Below, piece after piece: positions 21,362 to 25,428 of a DNA stretch of 64,000 bases. This stretch comes from a virus, in IMG/VR virus record IMGVR_UViG_3300032084_001540, positions 1 to 64,000 of that record. One strand, given 5' to 3'. The translations under genes and the position numbers were made by a program. The notes under the pieces are model-generated. The model did no database searches, had not been told where the DNA came from, and worked only from the letters and a program-made list of their open reading frames with translations. How positions within the stretch are numbered: position 1 is the stretch's first letter; the number at the start of each line of letters is the position of its first letter.

Positions 21362-24031
21362 TTATCCTTCTACTGAAGTTTGATCCTCTGTTCCTCTATC
21401 TGGATAAACTCTATATTTAGTAGTTTTGCCATCAAGACCCCAAACAATTCTTACGGCACCAACGCCTCCTTTTTTGAATTTTGAACCCTGGAAGTTTTTG
21501 TTAGAGACTGGACCGCCTCCACCATATTTTCCTCCACCAATCGTAGTGCCATCATCTCCACCAGATCCACCCTGACCATTATTTTCATACTTACTATCAC
21601 TGCCGTCAGATCCAGCAGTCTGGCCAGCACCAGATTCTCCTTCTCCAAGAAGTCCAACACCACCACCACCGCGTCCAGTAGTGCCGAGAACACCGCCGCC
21701 ACCACCGCCGCCACCGCTACCTTTTTCCTGACGACCAGATCCTGCAATTGATTCATATTCGTCACCTTCACCCATGCCGCCGTTGCCACTATATCCAGCA
21801 GCTCCGCCACCGCCACCACCGTCATTAGAACCACGCTTGTTGCCACCTTTACCACCTACTCCACCACCATCTCTCTCAACACCACCACTTATTCCTAATT
21901 TTGGTCCATCTTTAGGTTGACTACCAGGACCAGATTCACCACCTCCTCCAAGTAAAAGAATAGAACTAGTTGTAAATTTCTTATCCTTTCTCCTTTCAAT
22001 CATACTGTTTTGAGCAGAACCGCCAGCGGTGATTCTTAAAATCTCTCCTGGAGTTACTTTCATTGTACCATACGAGAGACCTCCACCAGATCCTGCCCAT
22101 CCACCATCGGATTCTCCATCACCACCACCGCCAACACAAACAGCAGAGATTTGTCTAACACCAGTAGGAACTTTCCATTGTGTTACCAGACTTCCGTTTG
22201 ATTTTCCTTCAAAAACAACTTGACCACGAGGTTCTACAACTGACTTGCCTTCATCGTCGCCAACATCATCATTCTTTTTCTTGCATGGGAATGGATAATC
22301 AATGAATGGAGAGATCCAATCCTCTCTTATCATTTTTAATTCAACATTGAATATTCCAGCAGCTGCACATTTTTCAAAGAACAAATCAATTGATGCTGCT
22401 ACCGTTGATCTCCTCATACTACCAGAAGTATCAATAGAAAGAAGAAGAGTAGTGGAGTTATCTAAACATTGAACGTTTGCGATTTCAAACCAATCCGTTG
22501 CATTAGAAGATTTTCCACCATCTCTATTAACTTCATGATAGAACGCTTTATCGTCATCTTCAAAATTTTCTGGAATAAACATATCAGATTTCTTTCTTCT
22601 GCTACCTTTCGGTTGAAGTAAGTGGAAAGTTCTATTTGGCCAACACTTTCTAAATTCTTCCCATCTCTGAAAGGCTACTCCATCACCAGATATATTAGAT
22701 CTTAGTGATTCATCAGCAACTGCAATACAAATTGAATCCGCAGTAGAACTAGAAAATTCTACAAATCTAATTTTTGTTCTTCCATATCTACTAGTGCCAC
22801 CTCCTGATGAAGTTAAAACCAAAGATGCTGACGAACTGTCGTACCAACCAGCACCGCCTCCGCCACCACTACCTTGACCCGTTGTGCCAGCGTTACCTCC
22901 GATGGATCCTGTTCCTCCTCCACCTCCATCACGCTTTAGTTTACTTTTCTTTTTATCAGTATTCGCCCTTCCGCCATTATTAGCACCTTCATATTCACTA
23001 TATCTTGAAAAATCAATTTTTTTATTGATTACAGAACCCTTAAGAAGTTCACCTCCTTTAGGTCCAGTTGCATTTCCAATAGCAGTATATTTGGATTTCG
23101 ATCCTTTCTTTGTATATTCTTTGTGTGGAAAAACTGGGTGCAGTGCTTTGGGTTTTTTGCCACCAGCTCCAGCACCTTTACCTCTTCCTGCACCGCCACT
23201 ACTGCCCAATCCACCACCATCACCACCTCTTCCAAGAGTTCCACCGCCACCGCCACCGCCTGAAACAGCGATAACTCTACCTCCACGATAGAACATTGTT
23301 CCACCCCCACCAGATCCAGCAGTCGGACCACCATTGCCACCACCACCAGAGTTTAAGTTTGGACCCCCCTGTGCTCCTCTACCTGGATATCCCATCTTAA
23401 CAGAATGGACAACACCTCTTCGTAGAGTGTACTTTATAGTTCCACTTCCACCAGCACCACCTAATTGTCCTTTATCAGATTTTTCTCCTGGAGAACCCTC
23501 TAGAGTTACTTCTACTACGATATCATTTTCCTTTGCATAAAAGAAAACCATTCCAGCAGTAGGTGGACCAACTTCATAAAATGTATCTTCTAAGTTTACA
23601 TCATATCTTATTGCATTATCGGGCAATCCGAAGATTTGACCTTCAGTTGCTAAATCAATTGTTTCTGATTTTACCCAAGTAGGTCTTTTTTTAGAACTTT
23701 TTTCAAAAAATTGTTCTGTTCTCTTGTTTGGTTTAACAGACCCAAGAGGTAATTCAATAACACGAAGTAAATTTCTTCCTGGAATGAACACCACTTCAAT
23801 GGAATTTGTTACTACTGCATCACCCTCTGAGTGAGTAACTAGAACATCATAAGTTCCCGACTCGGTTGTTGTGATAAGAGAAGCACCAGCAGCACCAGTG
23901 TCAGTAGCAAAAACTTCCCCATCCTTTCTCCAATTATAGGTGAGTTGATTTTCTGTATTATCTGATACGTTTGCTTGACAACTGAGGACGACTACAACGC
24001 CCTCTCTAAATGACTTTTTAATGTCTGCCAT
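21362..24031 (-). CDS. Glycine-rich adhesin with Ig-like and VWA/MIDAS-like segments
   Basis: The 889-residue protein has, in order: an Ig-like domain (~1-85, LTYNWRKDGEVFATDTG), a glycine-rich block (~190-430, with GGGGGAGWYD), a central segment and a second glycine-rich block (~640-870). The central segment contains LLLSIDTSGSMRRSTVA, in which D534-x-S536-x-S538 is a perfect metal-ion-dependent adhesion site motif of von Willebrand factor A domains. The glycine-rich blocks resemble polyglycine-II adhesin or ALK-type glycine-rich domains. Together these suggest a host-surface adhesin. It overlaps the next gene by one base. Confidence 0.75.
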   Translation of the reverse strand: MADIKKSFREGVVVVLSCQANVSDNTENQLTYNWRKDGEVFATDTGAAGASLITTTESGTYDVLVTHSEGDAVVTNSIEVVFIPGRNLLRVIELPLGSVKPNKRTEQFFEKSSKKRPTWVKSETIDLATEGQIFGLPDNAIRYDVNLEDTFYEVGPPTAGMVFFYAKENDIVVEVTLEGSPGEKSDKGQLGGAGGSGTIKYTLRRGVVHSVKMGYPGRGAQGGPNLNSGGGGNGGPTAGSGGGGTMFYRGGRVIAVSGGGGGGGTLGRGGDGGGLGSSGGAGRGKGAGAGGKKPKALHPVFPHKEYTKKGSKSKYTAIGNATGPKGGELLKGSVINKKIDFSRYSEYEGANNGGRANTDKKKSKLKRDGGGGGTGSIGGNAGTTGQGSGGGGGAGWYDSSSASLVLTSSGGGTSRYGRTKIRFVEFSSSTADSICIAVADESLRSNISGDGVAFQRWEEFRKCWPNRTFHLLQPKGSRRKKSDMFIPENFEDDDKAFYHEVNRDGGKSSNATDWFEIANVQCLDNSTTLLLSIDTSGSMRRSTVAASIDLFFEKCAAAGIFNVELKMIREDWISPFIDYPFPCKKKNDDVGDDEGKSVVEPRGQVVFEGKSNGSLVTQWKVPTGVRQISAVCVGGGGDGESDGGWAGSGGGLSYGTMKVTPGEILRITAGGSAQNSMIERRKDKKFTTSSILLLGGGGESGPGSQPKDGPKLGISGGVERDGGGVGGKGGNKRGSNDGGGGGGAAGYSGNGGMGEGDEYESIAGSGRQEKGSGGGGGGGGVLGTTGRGGGGVGLLGEGESGAGQTAGSDGSDSKYENNGQGGSGGDDGTTIGGGKYGGGGPVSNKNFQGSKFKKGGVGAVRIVWGLDGKTTKYRVYPDRGTEDQTSVEG

Positions 24032-25428
24032 TATAGTCCAACGAATTGAAATCTTGCGGATCCATCACCACCATCACTTCCATCGGCAGAGGTTCCTCCA
24101 CCTAAAGATCCACTGATGCAGAATTTAGTTCTGGTGACAATATCTTTATTTAGATAACCTGAGCCACCTCCACCACCACCTTCAAAGATAGCAACGTTAC
24201 CAGCTTTTCCACTATCTCCACCATACCAACCAGCGCCGCCTCCTCCACCTGACATTTTTCCAGTAACATTTGTTCCGCCACCATATAGTTTTCCACCATC
24301 CTTTCTGCCACCAAAACCAGATCTTGTTTGTGTTCCACCACCACCACCTCTTGATGGTGCATTTTTAGCATTTCCTCCAATTAAACCACCACCATTACCA
24401 CCTTGTCCATCTTCGTCAGAGTTACGACGACCAGATCCTGATCCACCACCGCCTCCAGCGATTAAAATAGCATTGTTTGTATTAACTTCTCCTTCAAAAA
24501 TACCACTATAACCACCACCAGCACCACCATCTTCTGTTCCAGACCATCCACCACCTGGATAACCACCTTGAGCGATTGGTTGCCCACTTGCTTTACCTTT
24601 TCCTCTTTCTCCACCTGCTGCAACAATTAAAGTATACTCAATGCCTTTCTTGAGAGTAAATTGCCCCTGAGCACCTCCACCAGTTCCGCCTTTTCTTTTA
24701 GAAACAGATCCATCAGGATCCTGATTATCATTAAATGCCAAGAACTTTCCAGTGTTGGGTGTATTAGAACTACCACCAGCAGCACCGCCACCACCACCAA
24801 CTAAAAATACTTGCAATTTGATATCTGATCTTGGAGTTACTATATAAGTCCCTCTTTGAATTCCAAAATTCAGAACCTTTCCATCAAGTTCAAAGTTCCA
24901 TGATGTAATAGTTCCACCAATAGCAGGAGAGACAGAAATAGTATTGTCAAGATCTTCTGTCACGGAATCTGGTTGAGTTATAACACTGATAAGTGGTTTA
25001 ACTTGCAAATTAACAATAGTAGAATTCAGGGGAGAATTAACTGCCCTTGGTGCAAAAGTAGAAACTCCAGATTGAGCGACATTAAAAGATCTAGAGTCTG
25101 GATAAAATATAGCTTGCTGAAAATAATTTGTATCATCAGAATCACTATTCAAATTACTTAGGGATAGTGATTCTCCTGAACCAACAATTGCATCTCTAGT
25201 AACTCCTCCACCAAAATCTCTGTCTTTTTGATACCAAACATATCCAATTGTACCTACACCAGCACTATACCCAGAAGGATATACGACTGTTGCAATCCCA
25301 GTAAAAGACACCGATCCGCTGAATCCAATGGAAGCGGATGGTGACTCTGGTTGTGTTTGATAGACTAGAGATGGTCTGTTAATATCAACATAAGAGTTGA
25401 AATGTCTGAATCCTACTGCCAAACTCAT
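24031..25428 (-). CDS. Glycine-rich adhesin-like tail protein, 465 aa
   Basis: The amino half looks like one or two Ig-like domains (IGFSGSVSFTGIATVVYPSG; TVSTITSW-type strands). From about residue 210 (DIKLQVFLVGGGGGAAGGSS) it becomes a glycine-rich domain with repeated GGGGG and GGGGGAGWYGG, the same signature as in the larger neighbour. No VWA motif is seen. The two are likely paralogues over this region and may form one adhesin. It overlaps both neighbouring genes by a few bases. Confidence 0.75.
   Translation of the reverse strand: MSLAVGFRHFNSYVDINRPSLVYQTQPESPSASIGFSGSVSFTGIATVVYPSGYSAGVGTIGYVWYQKDRDFGGGVTRDAIVGSGESLSLSNLNSDSDDTNYFQQAIFYPDSRSFNVAQSGVSTFAPRAVNSPLNSTIVNLQVKPLISVITQPDSVTEDLDNTISVSPAIGGTITSWNFELDGKVLNFGIQRGTYIVTPRSDIKLQVFLVGGGGGAAGGSSNTPNTGKFLAFNDNQDPDGSVSKRKGGTGGGAQGQFTLKKGIEYTLIVAAGGERGKGKASGQPIAQGGYPGGGWSGTEDGGAGGGYSGIFEGEVNTNNAILIAGGGGGSGSGRRNSDEDGQGGNGGGLIGGNAKNAPSRGGGGGTQTRSGFGGRKDGGKLYGGGTNVTGKMSGGGGGAGWYGGDSGKAGNVAIFEGGGGGGSGYLNKDIVTRTKFCISGSLGGGTSADGSDGGDGSARFQFVGL

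Follow-up and report, generated by a model that had tools for sequence, protein, structure and literature searches.

A conserved module with a MIDAS-like DxSxS loop in tail-cluster proteins of marine cyanophages

The tail-fibre cluster and its 889-residue protein

The window, that is the whole stretch of 64,000 nucleotides analysed here, is part of a 64,418-base virus record in IMG/VR. On its minus strand it contains an ORF of 889 residues (21362..24031) that carries the module described below and that, from its translation and its PHROG matches, encodes a protein of a tail-fibre cluster. The genes upstream of this ORF encode a tail fibre protein (phrog_529, E 0) and a protein rich in glycine, and those downstream a tail-fibre-like protein (phrog_18345) and virion structural proteins. 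Homologous genes of named cyanophages lie in the same cluster, between a tail collar/short tail fibre gene and a gp12-like gene. The status of phage tail protein, proposed for the ORF by an earlier sequence-only reading, is thus backed both by its tail-fibre neighbours and by this common cluster position. When the other end of the window was compared with phage records at the DNA level, 278 records matched (203 Synechococcus, 60 Cyanophage, 10 Prochlorococcus and 5 Marine entries), and on these matches the window virus was taken for a T4-like cyanophage.

For the adjoining glycine-rich protein of 465 residues (24031-25428, minus strand), Pfam gave a match to its ALK/LTK glycine-rich domain (E 3e-11). 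In S-PM2 a tRNA-Gly is annotated within the long tail fibre gene S-PM2t009 (L002 1785-1856). In S-PM2d, the module gene 221 is flanked by genes 218-220 and 224. ORFs 218, 219, 220 and 224 of this phage were reported to mutate during chemostat coexistence with the host; ORF 221 is unnamed in the main text of that report, where the mutated ORFs are given (PMC9910659). As far as that main text goes, these mutations tie the cluster to adsorption, and not gene 221 itself.

The 889-residue protein begins with a probable Ig-like domain (residues about 9-82, 23786..24007; this and all following features are on the minus strand), as suggested by weak PHROG matches (E 0.002-0.007) to tail proteins and Hoc-like head decoration; the N-terminal region of 182 residues gave no match among phage records. 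A first glycine-rich block, recognized by its composition (residues about 186-420, 22772..23476), precedes the module (residues about 432-580, 22292..22738), and a second one (residues 597-887, 21371..22243) follows it, defined by composition and by a match to PHROG 4474 over the same residues (E 5e-44). PHROG 29022, annotated 'virion structural protein', matches residues 453-582 (E 2e-21), and the module alone matches it with an E value of 6e-23.

The motif DTSGSM, read directly from the translation, corresponds to residues 534-539 (D534, S536 and S538; 22415..22432). It is preceded by TLLLSI and followed by RRSTVAASIDLFFEKC, as had been stated in the sequence-only reading, which also placed it between two glycine-rich blocks. 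Composition in 50-residue windows agrees with this placement, since glycine reaches 36-46% in several windows at 201-400 and 28-48% in several windows at 601-850, against 4-10% in those at 401-600. A chance origin of the motif, as a DxSxS arising in a protein rich in serine and glycine, can be ruled out almost with certainty: a bare DxSxS did appear in 33% of 10,000 shuffles of the protein, but DxSxS is kept together with its context in 47 of 47 full-length copies (see below), and this conservation is, for the sequences aligned, a stronger argument against chance than the shuffle frequencies of DxSGSM (0.12%) or of four hydrophobics plus DxSxS (0.26%).

The module family and its invariant residues

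As judged from the alignments, residues about 432-580 are a conserved and mobile module of ~150 residues present in tail-cluster proteins of marine cyanophages. A tblastn search with residues 430-600 retrieved 29 of 50,697 phage records, and searches with three other members retrieved 35 each (E up to 0.1). The phage records with the module are those of Synechococcus and Prochlorococcus phages and two marine single-cell virus records, with no others, and wherever the taxonomy was read the family was Kyanoviridae. The window module is 36-43% identical to nine cyanophage homologues. In IMG/VR, a pattern scan matched 152 stretches, among which 103 encode a relative and 80 were kept; a second IMG/VR-based alignment contains 68 loci and overlaps the first, and about 100 IMG/VR loci carry the module. 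An IMG/VR scan using the window module alone matched four stretches, none of which was confirmed. Cellular homologues were looked for in a single scan of genome_contigs with A1, and none of the 56 stretches matched was confirmed.

A remote branch of the family shares 18-24% identity with the first rows of the alignments; it is represented by two copies in one 76.5-kb virus record and is also present in two other contigs. The two copies of the 76.5-kb record are located at the C-termini of proteins of 295 and 299 residues (L217 1096-1983 and L219 1099-1998) and retain IDE, RD, DxSGSM and E-x-W.

No Pfam or NCBIfam model names the module. Searches of Pfam with ten members gave one CBM46 match (E 0.23, in one member only) and no match to Pfam VWA for any of the ten at E up to 10; PF13519 is absent from the window's record. 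In NCBIfam, four of five module proteins had no match, and the fifth had one unconvincing match (E 0.09). PHROG 29022 and PHROG 2155, both labelled 'virion structural protein', match ten and nine of the ten members, respectively; these clusters hold module proteins, but come without a named domain or a tested function.

The place of the module in its host protein varies. Among 85 distinct near-full copies, 36 begin within 20 residues of the start of the open frame, 10 finish within 15 residues of its end, and 39 are internal or cut by the end of the contig. A podovirus-type phage nozzle protein (L099 1004-4654, E 7e-199) ends in a module copy, in another locus (L147) the module comes after Ig domains, and an 883-residue protein (L100 3866-6517) contains two tandem modules, then matches to PA14 and GLEYA, which are adhesion-type domains.

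In total, 154 module rows in 153 loci were gathered. An alignment was made of 137 near-full-length copies from IMG/VR loci plus the window, and 47 remain at less than 90% identity. The count of invariant positions was made on these 47; neither split or partial copies nor the ten named-phage loci entered it. Seven positions never vary (47 of 47), and their placement relative to the strands was taken from DSSP on the model. D440 and E441 (22709..22714) belong to the IDE motif of the family and come after predicted strand 1, R503 (22523..22525) belongs to the NRD motif, after strand 3, D534, S536 and S538 form the MIDAS-like DxSxS loop after strand 4, and E570 (22322..22324) lies in the GERW/EDW motif, after strand 5. 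In model numbering these are D9, E10, R72, D103, S105, S107 and E139, to which 431 is added to obtain the ORF residues. All seven are polar, and each is found at or just past the end of a predicted strand.

D-x-S-G-S was observed in 90 of 90 module loci, a count that, like the 47 of 47 for DxSxS, is partly ascertained because the IMG/VR search patterns contained SGSM (one of the two patterns) or the DWF region. D440, E441, R503 and E570 were part of no IMG/VR search pattern. Downstream of DxSxS, the conserved candidates are limited to E139 (47/47) and to T112 at the start of a helix (43/47), both in model numbers. The second tandem copy of L100 is degenerate and reads D-N-S-S-S-L where the others have D-x-S-G-S-M; the D and the two S are therefore retained while G and M vary.

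Predicted fold and relation to VWA domains

AlphaFold2 models were obtained for residues 432-592 (41-row alignment; pLDDT 88.1, pTM 0.84) and for the S-PM2 module (44 rows; pLDDT 90.8, pTM 0.87). Both present the same order, strand-helix-strand-(short helix)-strand-(short helix)-strand-helix-strand, with DxSxS after strand 4 of 5. The module is thus predicted to be a compact Rossmann-like alpha/beta domain, the kind of fold anticipated by the sequence-only reading.

With neither model did Foldseek find a PDB chain at an E value of 0.001 or below; its rank 1 for the S-PM2 module model was 3rag (E 0.019). VIA also put 3rag first, both for the window module (Z 9.0, rmsd 3.3 Å, 139 aligned) and for the S-PM2 module (Z 8.4, rmsd 3.5 Å, 140 aligned). 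The rows below, which start well lower at Z 6.3 and 5.9, respectively, were Rossmann-like enzymes, CARF-type CRISPR proteins and a designed Rossmann fold. The protein of PDB entry 3rag, the uncharacterized Aaci_0196 of Alicyclobacillus acidocaldarius, is therefore the best structural neighbour of both models, yet the identity is 10-14%; a literature search found no paper on 3rag. When BFVD was searched with the first model, only two matches reached an E value of 0.001 or below, each of them a virion structural protein of a Synechococcus phage, and one phage model described as 'VWFA domain containing' was found at rank 28 (E 0.09). VWA chains were absent among the best 50 PDB matches listed by Foldseek or VIA for either model; since both programs align in sequence order and would miss a permutation, this absence is compatible with a relation.

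A canonical VWA domain has about six strands, with DxSxS on the first one and the Thr and Asp elements of the MIDAS downstream. The module shares with VWA/integrin I domains (PF00092, PF13519; E. coli YfbK) the hydrophobic strand, DxSGSM, the helix, a Rossmann-like fold (predicted for the module) and the invariance of DxSxS. The strand-loop-helix context of DxSxS is that of a VWA domain, and DTSGSM is identical to the motif of E. coli YfbK. In contrast, the motif comes after strand 4 of 5 in a module of about 150 residues, whereas in VWA it comes after strand 1. The second and third MIDAS elements (Thr and Asp), which the sequence-only reading proposed to look for, are missing downstream of DxSxS, where the sole later strand is strand 5; the candidate for the third-motif Asp, D440, is 94 residues upstream of the motif, and E441, R503 and E570 are additional invariant residues. 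What stands of the proposed VWA-like metal site is hence an invariant DxSxS loop of MIDAS type, flanked by a hydrophobic strand and a helix, and what does not is the order of the elements.

We then consider how far the likeness to VWA extends in sequence. Of five sub-threshold matches to PDB profiles, three were to VWA proteins (ITIH1, E 0.043; 4rck, 0.39; CobT, 1.6), with the motif as the aligned part. With hhalign, the C-terminal half matched a VWA profile with a probability of 94.9%, a value reached by none of 150 shuffles, and a second VWA profile with 95.4% (range of 91-95% over the two profiles for queries with the motif half). The motif-half queries gave 1-5% against HAD (at most 4.6%) and 0.2-0.4% against receiver profiles, and a HAD-like or receiver-like identity was dropped on these values. 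When the six motif columns were masked, the VWA probability fell to 0.5-0.6%. No likeness to VWA was seen in the sequence of the N-terminal half, whose score was equalled by 25 of 150 shuffles, and in a direct test against VWA strands 4-5 its local score was reached by 84 of 150 shuffles. As the VWA match is lost on masking, common descent is unproven and the likeness may be convergent; at the level of sequence, what is shared is a motif in a shared strand-loop-helix context, limited to the six motif residues. An ordinary VWA domain with its Thr and Asp motifs downstream, as first pictured, is thus highly improbable despite the identity with YfbK and the hhalign probability of 95%. In either model a single strand comes after the motif; on this and on the outcome of masking a canonical VWA was rejected, and the lack of Pfam VWA matches in all ten members adds to it.

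A circularly permuted VWA in which D440 would be the missing Asp fits these data. Its proposed sheet order, 3-2-1-4-5, was drawn solely from sequence-order alignments (Z 5-6) with NADP-binding, CARF and designed Rossmann folds and, if right, would make the IDE and DxSxS loops face each other. With such a sheet, the module would equal a VWA that was shortened, opened after its strand 2 and rejoined. Strands 4-5-1-2-3 of the module would then correspond to VWA strands 1-2-4-5-6, and D440 would stand in place of the third MIDAS Asp. This mapping of the strands relies on the general topology of VWA and Rossmann folds.

Possible roles of the invariant site

With the family, its invariant residues, its predicted fold and its tail-cluster setting directly supported, the best explanation, which we hold tentatively, is that the module is a mobile recognition domain carried by the tail and contains a MIDAS-like cation site. 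The site would be made of the DxSxS loop (D534, S536 and S538) together with D440, E441, R503 and E570, and would hold a divalent cation, Mg2+ or Ca2+ from seawater. We infer that, in MIDAS fashion, the domain would use this cation to hold on to the cyanobacterial surface by an acidic or glycan group.

A natural variant bears on this point. Two adjacent genes of P-SSM2, PSSM2_216 and PSSM2_215 (L200 4626-6166), each hold one half of the module, which is split likewise in AG-345-F15. The C-terminal half of the split type was found in six records, five of them at 99-100% identity and AG-345-F15 at 49.5%, and all four half-proteins match the module profile (i-Evalues 5e-13 to 7e-22, in a very small search). 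In the split copies four or five residues are missing from the SGSM loop, and IPD or IDD stands in place of IDE. In AG-345-F15 the Arg of NRD is replaced by Ile, in P-SSM2 it is not alignable, and E570 is retained in both. By these alignments, the P-SSM2 group has lost most of the conserved site, and because the split forms are one lineage this corresponds to one or two loss events and not to a statistic. The first half-gene of P-SSM2, named 'L-shaped tail fiber protein assembly', also resembles an LtfC-like beta-sandwich (below the Pfam cut-off).

The invariant residues could instead be a structural metal or salt-bridge site stabilizing a spacer or assembly domain, receptor binding being located elsewhere, for example in the glycine-rich blocks; we regard this as rather unlikely. 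The N-terminal, internal, C-terminal and tandem positions of the module are indeed scaffold-like, glycine-rich blocks are present on both of its sides in the 889-residue ORF, and E570, since it is kept in split copies that lack most of the site, may be structural. However, the invariant set is polar and placed at strand ends, and the split lineage keeps recognizable halves while losing the loop, which suggests that the site is dispensable for the fold. The site could also be catalytic, the module being a small hydrolase of surface polysaccharide or phosphate that uses acidic residues, an Arg and perhaps a metal; the chances of this appear low. The invariance of Asp, Glu, Arg and Ser exceeds the needs of a MIDAS and many enzymes have Rossmann-like folds, but the module has no significant match to an enzyme family in Pfam, NCBIfam or PDB profiles, and HAD and receiver profiles show no similarity to it.

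Carried further, the reading as a cation site leads to a more specific picture, possible although on the whole doubtful. The module would be a minimal permuted VWA with a rebuilt MIDAS (D440, D534, S536 and S538, with E570 or R503 for the missing Thr), used as a swappable metal-dependent recognition domain on marine cyanophage tail proteins, from the fibre clusters of myoviruses to a podovirus-type nozzle, and its site would be discarded where the module is split.

The sequence-only reading held a putative metal-dependent adhesion switch on a phage appendage to be novel. For VWA domains on appendages of tail type there is some precedent, as the available text on eCIS tail fibres reports VWA Pfam domains beside PKD and Ig-like domains (PMC12923769). 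These are likewise VWA-type domains on phage-tail-derived fibres, but they were found by Pfam and the module was not. The MoxR-VWA, CobT and TerF proteins of phages are phage-encoded VWA/MIDAS proteins; in the passages available they are chaperone partners, a chelatase subunit and stress proteins (PMC7824862, PMC8651126, PMC7911831), whereas the module belongs to a tail-fibre cluster. Our literature searches turned up no paper dealing with a permuted VWA, nor any in which a cyanophage tail protein has a VWA-type domain, and a description of the module was found neither in the domain libraries (Pfam, NCBIfam) nor in the literature searched.

How marine T4-like cyanophages recognize their receptors is poorly understood, and 'virion structural protein' is the only name given to most proteins of their fibre clusters. 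The seven-residue polar site gives the exact residues to probe in the S-PM2 / Synechococcus WH7803 system, for which the natural split version with its decayed site serves as a control. Should the fold turn out to be that of a permuted VWA, one of the best-known adhesion sites would have been rebuilt in an unusual way. Altogether, with its probable metal site, the module may be how marine cyanophages grip their hosts.
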